Shown here: positions 3,660 through 46,271 of the stretch, piece by piece | Layout of the letters: every line of letters starts with the position of its first letter | Numbering within the stretch: the first letter of the stretch is position 1 | NCBI GenBank assembly: GCA_021815405.1 | Contig: JAKAGV010000006.1 | Location: forward strand, 62,001 to 126,000 | DNA from: Bacteroidota bacterium | GTDB taxonomy: Bacteria > Bacteroidota > Ignavibacteria > Ignavibacteriales > Ignavibacteriaceae | DNA: 64,000 nucleotides | Direction of reading: 5' to 3' | Position numbers and translations under genes: made by a program | The notes under the pieces: model-generated | Databases searched by the model: none | Told to the model about the DNA's origin: nothing | Seen by the model: only the letters and a program-made list of their open reading frames with translations

Positions 3660-5042
3660 ATGACCTCAGAAATTGAGTTTGCTAACAGGATTTATTACAA
3701 CTACGAGCACTACAAAGAAAAAAGTCTGATTAACCGCAGGTTCAAACACTCAGACATAATTCCATTGATAGAACATTTAAATAAATCGGAAGTCTTTTCA
3801 TTGACTATGGCTGGTGAATCTGCACAGAAACGTTCAATTAATCTTATCAAATTCGGCAATGGTAAAACTAAAGTATTTCTATGGTCTCAGATGCATGGCG
3901 ACGAATCCACCGCAACAATGGCGTTATTTGATATCTTTAATTTCCTTGGTGCATTTGACGGATTTAATGATGTACGAAGGCTTTTTGCAGAAAATCTGTC
4001 CATATATTTTATGCCGATGGTAAATCCGGATGGAGCTGAGGTTTTTCAAAGAAGAAACTCTCTTGAAATAGACTTAAACAGAGATGCCGCAAAGCAGCAA
4101 TCGCCTGAAAGCAGAATTCTTAAAGAAACTTTCGACAATTTAAAAGCCGACTTCGGATTTAATTTGCATGACCAAAACATACTTTATTCTGCCGGTCATA
4201 CATTTAAGCCTGCAACTCTCTCCTTTCTTGCACCGCCTGTTGATTATGAACAGACAATTGATGATGCCCGCTCAAACTCGATGAAGCTAATCAGCCATCT
4301 TTATGAAGTACTTTCCGTTTTTATTCCCGGTCATATTGCAAAATATAAAGATGATTTTGAACCAAGAGCTTTCGGCGATAATTTCCAGAAAGCGGGTACG
4401 AGTACAATTCTTATTGAATCAGGAGGCTGGAAAGATGATCCGGAGAAACAGTTTGTGAGAAAATTAAATTACACTGCTTTGCTCGTCGCTTTGAAAAGTA
4501 TCGCCGAAAAAAATTACACTCATGAGAAAATAGAGATCTACGAAAACATTCCATTTAATGAAGAAGATTTAATGGATATGATTATCCGGAACGTTACCTT
4601 CAAGAATAACGGAATAGAATATAAAATTGATATCGGTATAACACGCACAGAGTCAAACTTTAACGGCGCAAAAGAATTCCATCATGAATCTGCCATAGAA
4701 GACATTGGCGATCTATCTATATATTTCGGTTATGAAGATTACGATTTTAACGGCATGGAAATATTTCCCGGAAAAACTTACTCGAAGAAATTCAGTTCCA
4801 TTTCCGAAATAGAAAAACTTAACCCGCATGAAATGTACAGCCAGGGATATACCAATATAATTGTTAATTCAGACAGCAGCGGCTTTTATCAAAAAGGATT
4901 TCCATTTTTTATTATTAATCCGGGACAGCAGAATCCTTCCGAAATAAAAATTGGGAAGACACCGAATTTCATTTTAAAAATGAATGATAAAGTTAGATAT
5001 GTAGTTATTAATGGCTTCTTAATCGATACGGAAGAAATTTAA
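3660..5042 (+). CDS. M14-family zinc carboxypeptidase
   Basis: The 460-residue protein carries the M14 zinc site: H79-x-x-E82 within SQMHGDEST and the third ligand H170 in GFNLHDQ. It also has substrate-site MVNPDGAE (about 120-127) with LNRDA (about 139-143), and the probable catalytic Glu253 in ILIESGGW. The C-terminal about 190 residues are an extra domain of unknown role. No signal peptide is visible, so it appears cytoplasmic. M14 enzymes trim C-terminal residues from peptides or cell-wall peptides; the substrate is not deducible. The ATG at 3660 follows the putative terminator at 3608-3638. Confidence 0.88.
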   Translation: MTSEIEFANRIYYNYEHYKEKSLINRRFKHSDIIPLIEHLNKSEVFSLTMAGESAQKRSINLIKFGNGKTKVFLWSQMHGDESTATMALFDIFNFLGAFDGFNDVRRLFAENLSIYFMPMVNPDGAEVFQRRNSLEIDLNRDAAKQQSPESRILKETFDNLKADFGFNLHDQNILYSAGHTFKPATLSFLAPPVDYEQTIDDARSNSMKLISHLYEVLSVFIPGHIAKYKDDFEPRAFGDNFQKAGTSTILIESGGWKDDPEKQFVRKLNYTALLVALKSIAEKNYTHEKIEIYENIPFNEEDLMDMIIRNVTFKNNGIEYKIDIGITRTESNFNGAKEFHHESAIEDIGDLSIYFGYEDYDFNGMEIFPGKTYSKKFSSISEIEKLNPHEMYSQGYTNIIVNSDSSGFYQKGFPFFIINPGQQNPSEIKIGKTPNFILKMNDKVRYVVINGFLIDTEEI

Positions 5043-5120
5043 AAGATTATGACCATTCTGTTTCCTTATTTGTAAGAGAAGAGATCAAAAATCAAAATAA
5101 GATGGCAGAATACAATTACC

Positions 5121-5510
5121 TCGTTTAAAGAGAATGGATTCTCACTACCAGAAATTGAAATTTTACACTTAGAATTGAAAAATCCATTATTGGATAAAGG
5201 ATAACCACTCTCCAAATTGAAAATTCAAGTCACAACAAATGAATTCCATGACTGGAAACGAAAAAATCAGGACAGAAATATAATTTCCAAGACAGGGAAT
5301 AGAAAATCCAGTACAAGAAATTAGGTTTCATTGCTTGGAAATGTAAATTCCTATCATAGAAAATGAAATCCAAGACAGGAAATTTAAAATCCAGTACAGG
5401 AAATGAGGTTTCTAAGCTTGGAAATCAAAAATCCAGTACAGGAAATATGATTTCCAAGCTTGGAAATTAAAATTCCAAGCATGGAATTTTAATTTCCGAT
5501 CAAATAAATT
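5121..5510. repeat. Array of about nineteen 21-bp imperfect palindromic repeats
   Basis: The TCC core recurs at about 5121, 5142, 5162, 5183, 5204, 5225, 5245, 5267, 5286, 5307, 5328, 5349, 5369, 5390, 5411, 5432, 5453, 5474 and 5495, with steps of 19-22 bp and nearly always 21. Two subtypes are visible: ATCCAGTACAGGAAAT (5307, 5390, 5432) and TTTCCAAGCTTGGAAA (5453; 5411 is close). The second is a perfect 16-bp palindrome. The 5' units are more decayed; fainter copies may reach back to 5063. There is no long open frame on either strand and there are no unique spacers. The whole gap 5043-5767 holds this array plus a promoter-like site and no gene. Confidence 0.85.
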
Positions 5511-5704
5511 GCTAATTTTGAACAAAAACGCACTTTTCCATTCAAATTTTGAATAATTGACAATATGAAATAAATAAAACTCTCAGTTAAAAACTTTATC
5601 CAGCCTAAGAAATTAACTTTAATGTTAGAATTATCTGGAATATTTAATCTGTTTATTTTATCAACATCCGGGAGGCATTTTATTAAAACAGTGATTAAAG
5701 ATTC

Positions 5705-5735
5705 TTGATTATAGACTAATGTTTACCTATTTTTG
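5705..5735 (+). promoter_or_regulatory. Candidate Bacteroidota-type promoter of the zinc-ribbon/rpsU operon
   Basis: TTG at 5705-5707 is followed after 20 bp by TATTTTTG at 5728-5735. This fits the Bacteroidota -33 TTG / -7 TAnnTTTG pattern with an allowed spacer. It sits about 32 bp before the ATG at 5768. Use of this pattern in the source organism is assumed. Confidence 0.4.
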
Positions 5736-5767
5736 AGTCTTAGGTTTTTAGCATAGGAAGTTTTATC

Positions 5768-6148
5768 ATGGCACGTGTAAAGAATATTGAAGCGTTTTGT
5801 TCTTTTTGTAACGCTGTTAAAAAGATGGAATTAGCCGGGGAAGTTTTAGGATCAGATAAACCAAACAGATATTGGGCTAAATGCAAAAAGTGCAAACAGA
5901 CCATGATAATTGATTTAACTGAAAATGTAAAAATTACAAAGCCTTCACTTGAAGGAATTGAAAATGAAGATTGCACGATTTATTCACCTGACAAATCCTT
6001 TACCGTAGGCGAATCTATATATCATAAGAACTGGGATGACTTTGGCAAGGTTGTTTCTAAAGAAACTCTTTCGAACGGTCAAAGTTCAATCGCGGTAGAG
6101 TTTCAGAAATCAGGATTAAAAAAATTAATTGAATCATACACAATTTAA
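5768..6148 (+). CDS. Zinc-ribbon protein with C-terminal small beta-barrel (tudor/SH3-like) segment
   Basis: The 126-residue protein has two Cys pairs (CSFC near residues 11-14, CKKCKQ near 39-42) that make a zinc ribbon. A C-terminal segment, FTVGESIYHKNWDDFGKVVSKE, resembles the VGDxVxHxxFGxGxVV barrel found at the ends of PcrA/UvrD and in other nucleic-acid or RNA-polymerase-binding proteins. I do not know a named family with this exact architecture. It is 24 bp upstream of rpsU on the same strand, so a role near translation or transcription is inferred from context only. ATG at 5768 follows AGGAAG. Confidence 0.75.
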   Translation: MARVKNIEAFCSFCNAVKKMELAGEVLGSDKPNRYWAKCKKCKQTMIIDLTENVKITKPSLEGIENEDCTIYSPDKSFTVGESIYHKNWDDFGKVVSKETLSNGQSSIAVEFQKSGLKKLIESYTI

Positions 6149-22711: not shown

Positions 22712-22750
22712 AAGTGTGTGATCTATGGTAGGAATAAAAATAAATTATTA

Positions 22751-22874
22751 AGTGAAGTTACGCAAGAGCTTATAAATGTCATGCTAAACTTGTTTCAGCA
22801 TCTAAAAACTGGGCAAAAAAGAGATTCCGAATCAAGTTCGGAATAACAAATTCATTTCTTTGGGTAACTTCAGT
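22751..22874. mobile_element. Non-autonomous inverted-repeat element, TGAAGTTACGCAA family
   Basis: A 124-bp element has ends AGTGAAGTTACGCAA (22751-22765) and TTGGGTAACTTCAGT (22860-22874). The core holds CATGCTAAACTTGTTTCAGCATCT and GATTCCGAATCAAGTTCGGAATAAC, two hairpins. It has exactly the same length as the copy at 46081-46204. Its right end overlaps the 3' end of the sensor kinase gene and supplies that gene's TGA stop (22870-22872). Confidence 0.8.
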
Positions 22875-24252
22875 TAATAAATGAAACGATAAAGACTGTC
22901 CCTTTTTCCACCTGACTTGAAACCGATATTGAAATGTTCTGAAGATCAGCTAACTTTTTTACAATGGCAAGACCAATGCCATTTCCTTCAGTTCTAGAAT
23001 TTCTAGATTCATCACCGCGATAAAATCTATCGAAAATCCTGGATGCCTGCTCTTCAGTCATCCCTAATCCGTTATCTTGAATATAACACGTGGCCTTACC
23101 GTCGATGCTTTCTATCTTAATGTTAACACAGCCATTTTCATTTGAATACTTAATGGCGTTTGTTAAAATATTTTCAAAAATCGTTCCTACCATTGAAGAA
23201 TCTGCGTGAACAGAAACTTTCACATCGTCATCATATTTAATAGAAAGCTTCTTCTCATCGGCAAAGCTCTTTACCCGCTGAATGACAGCCTGCATTGCAG
23301 TATTCAAATCTATTTCATTAATAACCGGAATTACTTTCCCACTTTCAAACCGTGCAAGCATTAAAAGCTGTTCGATAAGCAGTGTCATTCGGTCAACTTC
23401 GCTAATGCAGTATTTAATTTTGCTTTCATATTCATTCACATCGCGAGGTTTTCTTATCAATACCTCAAGAGTTCCTTTTAGAACTGCAAGCGGCGTTCTG
23501 AGTTCATGCGATGCGTCAGAAGTAAATTGCTTTTCACGAAGTACAGCATCTTCAAGACGATTCAACAAATCATTTATTGTCGAAGTAAGTTTATAAATCT
23601 CATCTTTATGTTCGGGAAGTTCAATTCGCTCATCAAGATTTTCTTTTGTAATTCTTTCGGCAGTTGAAATCACTTTGTTGATAGGAGAAATACTTTTACC
23701 GGCTATGTATCTTGTTATATAATAAAGGGCTAAAAGTACAAGCCAAAACGTACCAAGAAGAATAACAAATAAATTGTTTAGAACAGTGGATGATTCTGAC
23801 AGCGGCATTGCAACAATTATATATCCTAGTATAACGCCGGATGGGTTTTTTATCGGAATCTGTACCTGTCTAATCTGCGAGCCTGAAAGTGAAGTGTTAA
23901 AATAATATTCGGTTTTAAGCTGTGAATCGAAGTTCAATTTGCCGTTTAATAGGTTTCCTGTTTTCTTTATAATTTTGCCGGAGGCATCAATTATCTGAAT
24001 AAAAACCGGATTGACTTCTATCTGTCCGTGTTCACGCTCGTTCCATTCAAATGCATTTGCAATGATAAATTGGTCATTCAATACAACAAGATTTTTTTCT
24101 ATTTCATTCGATTCTGCATCGAGGTCTTCATCCATATGCCGGTAAACTGTTTCGCTTACAGAAAAATAAATTGCAATAAAGATTATACCGGTTAAAATAG
24201 CTGTGCTTATCAAATAAAAAAATGAAATGCGGTTTCTAAGATTAAGCTGCAT
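22870..24252 (-). CDS. Sensor histidine kinase (HAMP, HisKA, HATPase; CusS-like architecture)
   Basis: The 460-residue inner-membrane kinase has transmembrane helices at about 10-32 and 157-178 enclosing a periplasmic sensor of about 125 residues. HAMP is at about 180-235, the phospho-acceptor H249 is in SDASHELRTPLAVLKG, and the ATPase boxes are intact (NILTNAIKYSNENG, DNGLGM, GNGIGLAI). The signal is unknown. It is the last gene of DUF2231-regulator-kinase, overlapping the regulator by one base. Its final codon is followed by a TGA that belongs to the terminal repeat of a mobile element, so the original C-terminus may have been slightly different. Confidence 0.92.
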   Translation of the reverse strand: MQLNLRNRISFFYLISTAILTGIIFIAIYFSVSETVYRHMDEDLDAESNEIEKNLVVLNDQFIIANAFEWNEREHGQIEVNPVFIQIIDASGKIIKKTGNLLNGKLNFDSQLKTEYYFNTSLSGSQIRQVQIPIKNPSGVILGYIIVAMPLSESSTVLNNLFVILLGTFWLVLLALYYITRYIAGKSISPINKVISTAERITKENLDERIELPEHKDEIYKLTSTINDLLNRLEDAVLREKQFTSDASHELRTPLAVLKGTLEVLIRKPRDVNEYESKIKYCISEVDRMTLLIEQLLMLARFESGKVIPVINEIDLNTAMQAVIQRVKSFADEKKLSIKYDDDVKVSVHADSSMVGTIFENILTNAIKYSNENGCVNIKIESIDGKATCYIQDNGLGMTEEQASRIFDRFYRGDESRNSRTEGNGIGLAIVKKLADLQNISISVSSQVEKGTVFIVSFIN

Positions 24253-30324: not shown

Positions 30325-31569
30325 TTATTCAAAATGAACATTGAGGAAGGGAAGAACTTTTGTTATGCTGGAGTTATTTTTGGCAATATTTATTAAGCCG
30401 ATTTGAAAACCATTCAAATTCTCAGTAAAGTTTAATATTCCAATTGCCAAGCCTTGCTGCTCATGGCTGAAATTGTTATAAGCTGAAATAGACACACCTT
30501 GCATAACATTTACTTTTGTCCAGCATGCTGCAACATTAAGTCCGTTAAATTCATCTGTTTCAGTTTTGAAGCCGGTAAAATTTATTCCCGTAATTAATTT
30601 TTCTCCAATAACTGCAAGGGCGGCAATATTAATACCATTTATGCTGCTCTGGCTAACAATTCCTAAACCACCAAAATTAATTCCTCTTAAATTTCCTTGG
30701 GAAACAACTGCAAGCCCACCGAGATTTATTCCATACATATCTTTTTGGCTTACTACAGCAATACCTCCGGCATTTATACCTTTCATTTCACCTTGAGAAA
30801 CAACTCCAAGACTCGCAAAATTAATTCCGGTCAGATCCTTTTGGCTGACAACAGCACCGCCTCCAAAATTAATTCCGGTCATATCACCTTGCGAAACGGT
30901 TGCAAGCCCGCCGAAATTTATTCCGCTTAAATCTTTTTGAGAAACGATTGCTAAGCCGCCAAAGTTTATGCCCGACATATCTTTTTGCGATACTGCCGCA
31001 AGTCCGCCTGCATTTATTCCAAATTGATTACCCTGAGAAACCGAAGCTAAGCCGCCGATATTAATTCCGGCAAGTTCTTTTTGCGAAACGACTGCAAGTC
31101 CTCCTAAATTAATTCCCCGCATATTTTTCTGTGAAACAACAGCCAAGCCGGCAAGGTTTATTCCCTCAGCATTTCCGCCTGAGACTACGGCTAAGCCGCC
31201 AATATTAATTCCGCGAGTATTTTCCTCTGCTATACTTGCAGCTATTCCTAATGATATTCCCTGCATTGTACCGGCTGACGGAGACAATCCGAATGCAATT
31301 CCATTGACTCTTGAGCCTGCAAGATTCCCCGGTTTCCATATAGTAATATTTATTCCATTTATTTCTTCAACACCGCAATCTGAAAAATTAAATCGAATGC
31401 CATCCCACCTTTGCGAGTTTCCAAAACTTAAACCACTGTTTGATGCACCTAAGTTAAAGCTTGAATATGAGCATTCCTGCTCAGCAGTATCGCTTTCAAA
31501 AAAATTTATTTGTGCAAAGCAAGTTGAATAAAAAATTGTTAACGCAAATAATAAGATTATACTTTTCAT
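30325..31569 (-). CDS. Exported surface-repeat protein with about fourteen 16-residue repeats
   Basis: The 414-residue protein has a signal peptide (residues 1-19). Then, from about residue 105 to 335, runs a regular 16-residue repeat with consensus INxGGLAVVSQKDxxG, for example INLGGLAVVSQKELAG and INFGGLATVSQGDMTG. Variable positions alternate QK(D/E) and QG(N/D/E). It resembles the LA_2272-type surface-repeat proteins known from spirochaetes, which are predicted outer-membrane or solenoid proteins of unknown function. The C-terminal 80 residues diverge but keep the rhythm (INFTGF, LNVAACW, GLAIGILNF). Single gene. Confidence 0.8.
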   Translation of the reverse strand: MKSIILLFALTIFYSTCFAQINFFESDTAEQECSYSSFNLGASNSGLSFGNSQRWDGIRFNFSDCGVEEINGINITIWKPGNLAGSRVNGIAFGLSPSAGTMQGISLGIAASIAEENTRGINIGGLAVVSGGNAEGINLAGLAVVSQKNMRGINLGGLAVVSQKELAGINIGGLASVSQGNQFGINAGGLAAVSQKDMSGINFGGLAIVSQKDLSGINFGGLATVSQGDMTGINFGGGAVVSQKDLTGINFASLGVVSQGEMKGINAGGIAVVSQKDMYGINLGGLAVVSQGNLRGINFGGLGIVSQSSINGINIAALAVIGEKLITGINFTGFKTETDEFNGLNVAACWTKVNVMQGVSISAYNNFSHEQQGLAIGILNFTENLNGFQIGLINIAKNNSSITKVLPFLNVHFE

Positions 31570-45901: not shown

Positions 45902-46080
45902 GCCAATTCCTCAACTTATAATCGAAAAATTTGGCAGAGAATTGAGTCCCTTTAAGGTTAGATTTCACAAAGATAAGGGAAATGAGTAGTATCTATCAAT
46001 AAAATTCATAGATTAAAGTTAAGATACACCTGAAATAGTCTGTAACTTTATTATTCCCCTTAAGAACTAATTTATTATTT

Positions 46081-46204
46081 ACTGAAGTTACGCAAAATGA
46101 ATAAAATGATCCATTTGTCATTCCAAACTTGTTTCGGAATCTTAATTTTTAAGCTGTTTTTAGATGCTGAAACAAGTTCAGTATGACAATTGCGTAACTT
46201 CGGT
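46081..46204. mobile_element. Non-autonomous inverted-repeat element, TGAAGTTACGCAA family
   Basis: A 124-bp element has ends ACTGAAGTTACGCAA (46081-46095) and TTGCGTAACTTCGGT (46190-46204), 14 of 15 bases complementary. The core holds GTCATTCCAAACTTGTTTCGG and GCTGAAACAAGTTCAGTATGAC, two hairpins. It has the same length and order as 22751-22874. It fills most of the gap 45902-46271; no gene there. Confidence 0.82.
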
Positions 46205-46271
46205 TATTTAGTATCTAACTGATTTGAAAGCCCAATTTCAAAAATTCTTCCTGCTTTTAACCATCATCAAA

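Follow-up and report, generated by a model that had tools for sequence, protein, structure and literature searches.

A 21-bp quasi-palindromic array in an Ignavibacteriaceae genome and a class of arrays that share its period

A gap between two genes on contig JAKAGV010000006.1, in a genome of 4.97 Mb and 31 contigs, contains a run of short quasi-palindromic units. We asked what kind of element this is, whether it stands alone, and which of several readings best accounts for it. The window is the 64,000-nucleotide stretch of this contig that was analyzed.

The window array and its locus

A sequence-only reading of the window had placed nineteen 21-bp palindromic units at 5121–5510, with two subtypes alternating, and had suggested a phased protein-binding array, curved DNA or a decayed coding repeat. 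The repeat proved to be real. A tandem-repeat finder, a check proposed in that reading, detected the region at periods of 42 bp (5214–5477, score 137) and 83 bp (score 213) and also at 21 bp (TRF). For lag 21 the identity in 200-bp windows rose to 0.56 and for lag 42 to 0.61, in both cases the maximum of the whole 64-kb window; the next-best sites reached 0.415 and 0.42 (mean 0.29, sd 0.04). A cyclic 21-column fit, with two 1-bp shifts at the units 5265 and 5348, placed the array on the forward strand at 5139–5514 and gave the consensus tTCCaAgacagGAAAT..aAA and 18 full units, one fewer than the nineteen counted before. Identities at lags 21, 42, 63 and 84 were 0.49, 0.53, 0.45 and 0.51 (best of ±1). 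Lag 42 exceeds lag 21 because two subtypes alternate, as had been proposed. In palindromicity the unit profile outscored all 300 column permutations. A TTTCCA..TGGAAA half-palindrome had been ascribed to every unit; the palindromic profile stands, but the first six units (5139–5264) are much decayed or irregular. The best-kept block, at about 5244–5496, overlaps a segment with an in-register alignment to an array on contig C29 (70% over about 257 bp). Two other identities were tried and rejected. A heptamer sub-repeat gave a lag-7 identity of 0.346, below those at lags 5 and 21, and a CRISPR does not agree with contiguous, degenerate units and four surrounding genes in which a scan found no cas family.

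The array lies in an intergenic gap (5043–5767) of 729 bp, compared with 68–307 bp in 10 relatives of the same genus. The description of the site as gene-free held, since no open reading frame of at least 60 amino acids overlaps 5121–5510 and each of the six frames of the array contains 5–9 stop codons in 132 codons. The flanking genes, both on the forward strand, provide context: on the left (3660–5042) a gene with a Peptidase_M14 domain, on the right (5768–6148) a gene for a 126-amino acid protein with conserved synteny, which is outside the array-linked families found here and matched no Pfam family at E 0.001. The latter protein had a weak match to UvrD-type helicase models, in their C-terminal part (E 8e-4, far below the cut-off).

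The two flanking genes were adjacent in 10 of the 12 same-genus relatives searched. Gap lengths in these relatives were taken from coordinates, and the gap sequences were examined in all but one (G010). The array was missing from the gap in 10 of 10 relatives with both genes at a threshold of 0.48; one of them (G003) scored 0.424. The same result was obtained for a second array, at C11:315k, which lies between two genes of what is presumably a cytochrome-c-biogenesis operon: it was absent in all 11 same-genus relatives that have both flanking genes, two of which have a long gap and no array. Either this lineage therefore acquired the two arrays, or they were lost several times in others. Absence from related strains had been named as grounds for giving up the element, and at the window locus that absence was found. 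It does not refute the class, however, because a search with the consensus, also proposed beforehand, recovered the same unit elsewhere in the genome, and related genomes contain further 21-bp arrays.

A class of 21-bp arrays and their neighbors

A census of repeats with periods of 10 to 40 bp (identity of at least 0.48 over 147 bp) covered 1.664 Mb, about a third of this genome, made up of the window and 80 further stretches, each 20 kb long. The stretches were chosen rather than randomly drawn, and one of them, C23:120-140k, was already known to contain an array. Period 21 accounted for 17 calls, and no other period for more than three. Four of the 17 (L146, L156, L160 and L243) fell inside open reading frames of at least 130 amino acids. 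We judged L160 to be the only real coding repeat among them; the frames at the other three were taken as chance because each array is directly upstream of a small-family gene. Sixteen arrays remained after L160 was dropped, mostly with unrelated units and with two near the threshold (L235, 0.485; L147, 0.49), which would correspond to about 48 per genome. The profiles of 30 arrays, including all of the 16 except L113, had a mean pairwise correlation of 0.42 (sd 0.12, 435 pairs), and nine pairs exceeded 0.8. This is a class in which the step is held and the sequence of the site varies between arrays; the window array, with its period of 21, degenerate unit and intergenic position, belongs to it. 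No clean array came from five other genomes of the order (four 20-kb stretches each), where two calls exceeded 0.48; these looked by eye like low-complexity coding DNA and were high at many periods. Two related genomes contain 21-bp arrays with units unlike most others (L069, 11367–11856; L074, 977–1219), and no gene of the families F1–F5 described below was recognized alongside either. The highest count in the census after 21 was at 11 bp, with three calls, and an intergenic array of 11-bp period and AGTATAAAATC type was seen in L161 at 7925.

The census and other searches brought the arrays known in this genome to 23, of which nine are upstream of a small-family gene, two are just downstream of one and 12 are neither. 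The F1 genes of this genome are paralogs of 207 amino acids whose products combine an N-terminal helical part with a fibronectin-III domain; the AlphaFold model of this fn3-type protein has a long helix and a fibronectin-like sheet at low confidence (pLDDT 59.7). Named F1 relatives are from Bacteroidetes or Ignavibacteria bacteria. Each of the six close members of F1 is preceded by a 21-bp array, and by eye these arrays fall into three unit types. F2 is a family of 126 amino acids and has, close to the end, a sequence resembling DSDEYELLGGTKRSDRK. The case for a shared origin of the helical parts of F1 and F2 is weak, as hhalign gave probabilities of only 1.5 (A6) and 35 (A3). F3 arrays are upstream at C14:189k and downstream at C23:129k, and one F3 member matched DUF6261 below the cut-off (E 0.018). 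For F4 the array is upstream at C1:78k, and in G038 another open reading frame separates array and gene. F5 is a single instance, with the array just downstream at C10:98k. The neighbor of the array at C2:102k is a gene for 205 amino acids with a weak fn3 match below the cut-off. No DNA-binding domain was found at the cut-off in the array-linked proteins scanned. Among 391 genomes of the taxonomic class, nine have a full-length F1, seven have an F3 match and five have both (hypergeometric P 3.5e-8, kinship ignored); without two partial F3 matches, three are common to sets of nine and five (P 8e-5, kinship again ignored).

The association with F1 and F2 was quantified with 19 full-length F1 and six F2 genes; ten short fn3-only matches and an F2 gene that lies at the start of a contig (G253) were excluded. 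Period 21 ranked first of 18 periods within 600 bp upstream in 19 of 25 cases, compared with two of 24 downstream. Leaving out the genes that had first been found through their arrays (C10, C29, and F2 on C23 and C11), the upstream figure was 15 of 21. Six genes were exceptions. The G019 array is present and mostly lies beyond 600 bp, L093 is a partial gene with an array about 1.5 kb upstream, and at G171 a period of 20 bp ranked first and 21 second. The remaining three (G156, G082 and G073), all from genus g73, have no upstream array, which may have been lost there as a genome-level trait.

Some sequence features recur between genomes. The units of the F1 arrays of C30, G012 (same genus) and G019 (another genus) correlate at r 0.82–0.84, and by this comparison the unit is kept across two genera. 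C10, C29, G012 and G019 yielded a tail motif, GAAAATnGAnnAAAAnCG, situated between the array and the gene. With at most two mismatches it was present on the forward strand in 8 of 28 regions: C10, C29, C30, G012 and G019 (F1), C16 and C11 (F2), and L235. It is on the reverse strand in the F2 region of G038, and the best the window offers is three mismatches (p 0.13). By stretch, a motif of this type is near the 3′ ends of the arrays in L065, L064, L086, L087, L088, L275, L259 and L235, which precede genes of two different families.

The window array is an orphan, with no small-family gene alongside. When four orphans (window, C14:113k, C23:73k and C11:315k) were searched against the whole genome, each returned a second array of the same unit, and in four of four cases this partner was beside a small gene. 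The partners are upstream of the gene for the window array (F1, two partners, at C29:6145–6381 and C10:67905–68145, both just upstream) and for C23:73k (F4), and just downstream for C14:113k (F3) and C11:315k (F5). Starting from gene-linked arrays, C14:189k had an orphan partner on C9 and C2:102k had none at E 0.01 in the genome search; in G008 one unit is common to an orphan and an F1 array. Seven further orphans were compared with 1.73 Mb of sequence, where L235 gave a weak match and the other six none. In-register alignments of nine pairs were set against 40 unit-shuffled controls each. Five pairs were clearly above all controls, two exceeded the control maximum by no more than 0.01 and two did not exceed it. 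Most pairs therefore look block-copied.

Geometry of the units and a possible binding platform

Palindromicity is a frequent property of the class: 19 of 27 arrays, related ones included, exceeded column permutations at p<0.05, and eight, C14:113k among them, did not. Curvature is not. In a wedge model the window array was no more curved than column-shuffled controls (p 0.71), which gives no support to the curved-DNA half of the earlier proposal, and four of 27 arrays reached p≤0.05. The A/T content had no enrichment in the 10.5-bp harmonic (share 0.095, 0.1 expected), and its 7-bp harmonic was raised on average (share 0.215). If the units acted as hairpins or cruciforms, the arms of a unit should match each other better than they match the arms of other units. 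Over 25 arrays the arms did not covary (mean z −0.44, Stouffer −2.19), and the units thus fit protein sites rather than hairpins.

The two-turn step, the dyads with independent arms, the motif common to two genera and the place before genes together lead us to read the arrays as platforms for cooperative protein binding. We favor, tentatively and with slightly less than an even chance, a class of dyad-symmetric protein-binding sites two helical turns apart that are linked to small-protein genes and copied as blocks. The window array has the constant whole-turn step and dyad-symmetric site of phased operators and iteron-like arrays, and the phased protein-binding array of the sequence-only reading is the suggestion that best fits its step, its palindromic units, its lack of an open frame and its non-covarying arms. 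It would be a cis-acting DNA platform of about 18 putative sites, along which one dimeric, sequence-specific protein might load side by side, and perhaps cooperatively, on one face of the helix. The common form of the class would be an array directly before a small helix-rich gene, or, twice, just behind one. The window array would then be a distant copy, without a gene of its own, of the sites in front of two fn3-type genes; block copying within this lineage is its most likely origin. The same protein may recognize such orphans, and its binding could affect expression or chromosome folding. Several results weigh against this reading: the eight arrays without a significant palindrome, the 10.5-bp harmonic that is not enriched next to a raised 7-bp one, the two orphan partners downstream of their genes, the single F5 case, the frame between array and F4 gene in G038, the array-linked proteins scanned in which no DNA-binding domain came up at the cut-off, the array-free genes of genus g73, and, as set out below, the loss of register in the window array and the average phase of the arrays. 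A more elaborate version, which we regard as doubtful, is a modular address system for the chromosome, in which genes for helix-rich small proteins have private arrays, remote orphans share the address, and a protein bridges or coordinates the matching loci, with the step fixed and the sequence free to vary.

If the platform reading is true, one genome would carry some tens of cis-elements alike in geometry rather than in sequence, and this would suggest why motif finders that look for shared sequence miss the class. That several element types are beside small-protein genes would give a first handle on orphan families (fn3-type, DUF6261-like and others). The arrays would also be a natural test bed for selection on helical spacing rather than on sequence. 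About half of the arrays are beside small genes, a hint of a DNA docking system not described before.

Alternative explanations and known systems

The main rival, in our estimate somewhat unlikely, is a mutational product without function, in which local copying (slippage, or template switching at quasi-palindromes) was followed by decay and occasional copying elsewhere. Such a process agrees with the presence of arrays at two loci in this genome only, when compared with close relatives, and with the pairs that were copied as blocks. In 23 arrays the mean identity at exact multiples of 21 fell from 0.55 at one unit to 0.41 at nine units, a profile that resembles simulations with about 50–100 substitutions per indel, for arrays found with a detector biased towards those that keep phase. 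The window array loses register, with an identity of 0.31 at lag 126 (six units), and this copy may be decaying, as the mutational account would have it. Several arrays, however, stay near 0.5 out to nine units, as simulated with 300 or more substitutions per indel, and slippage would not be expected to leave identity nearly flat with distance. (The raw indel count was rejected as proof of selection, since it did not discriminate in simulation, and the lag profile was used instead.) The mutational account also leaves unexplained a single period across many unrelated units, the upstream placing at two gene families in many genera, and the unit kept between two genera.

We consider it quite unlikely that array and small gene form a mobile or amplifying unit of which the orphans are array-only derivatives. 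The pairs of orphan and gene-linked arrays and the lineage-specific presence at two loci would follow naturally, and by eye C10 and C29 have array, gene and upstream flank in common. Yet no transposase or recombinase family was found in the small genes scanned, no F1 or F2 relative was confirmed in IMG/VR, nor any F1 or F3 relative in plasmids, and no target-site duplication could be defined. Moreover, 13 orphan loci, the window included, contained no clear relic of an F gene (best tblastn E 0.024).

Action as RNA, with hairpins strung along a transcribed leader or small RNA, appears very improbable. The window array folds far better than its shuffles (z −7.85), but a non-palindromic array of the class folds no better than shuffles (z +0.77), the arms within units have no compensatory changes, and Rfam returned nothing close to a gathering score over 4900–5800. 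A decayed coding repeat of seven codons is scarcely credible: the period is a multiple of three, some arrays have a stop-free frame (C2:102k and G038 (L079), for example) and three arrays treated as noncoding sit inside frames of at least 130 amino acids, but every frame of the window array is interrupted, and in 20 of 27 arrays no frame is free of stops.

The platform reading invites comparison with known systems. Plasmid iterons and partition centromeres are arrays of tandem sites about two helical turns apart, on which proteins load cooperatively on one face. The arrays described here are alike in their tandem two-turn sites, for which we propose such loading, and differ in that more than twenty of them, mostly with unrelated units, occur in a single genome. 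Among the array neighbors scanned, none was recognized as a replication or partition gene. Replication iterons were rejected for the window array, whose neighbors are a peptidase and the 126-amino acid protein without a Pfam family, and the array-linked genes scanned are not initiators. REP/BIME palindromes are intergenic, belong to one conserved sequence family, are tied to RAYT genes and have copies away from the gene. The present arrays resemble them as intergenic palindromes that are tied to a gene family and have copies elsewhere, and differ in being tandem, with array-specific units and no recognized transposase.

Two printed systems are also close. As described in PMC4679880, TAACTGA-type heptamer direct repeats are intergenic, lie before genes, are reported also from some Bacteroidetes and Cyanobacteria, and have one fixed 7-bp sequence, whereas the unit here is a free, degenerate and often palindromic 21 bp. 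The tandem repeats of Borgs, as described in PMC9879509, occur at many loci per genome, some of them intergenic, and have independent origins; they are perfect, and only 14–38% of intergenic unit lengths are divisible by three, unlike the degenerate units of one length found here. We did not find such arrays described in the open-access full-text literature, a coverage outside which most subscription journals and bioRxiv fall. As the nearest printed systems do not match either, we regard the kind of array as new, with a putative function.

Other repeats were seen in the window. At 46075–46206 and 22745–22880 there are copies of a MITE-like element, about 136 bp long and ending in TAACTGAAGTTACGCA/TGCGTAACTTCAGTTA, with dozens of matches in the part of its own genome that was covered, many of them above 95% identity. 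Further copies are in L246 (12239–12383), L152 (15139–15274) and L115 (13372–13507), and by coordinates the element abuts three 21-bp arrays. A tandem repeat with a 96-bp unit is present in 2.8 copies at 30667–30939 of the window.
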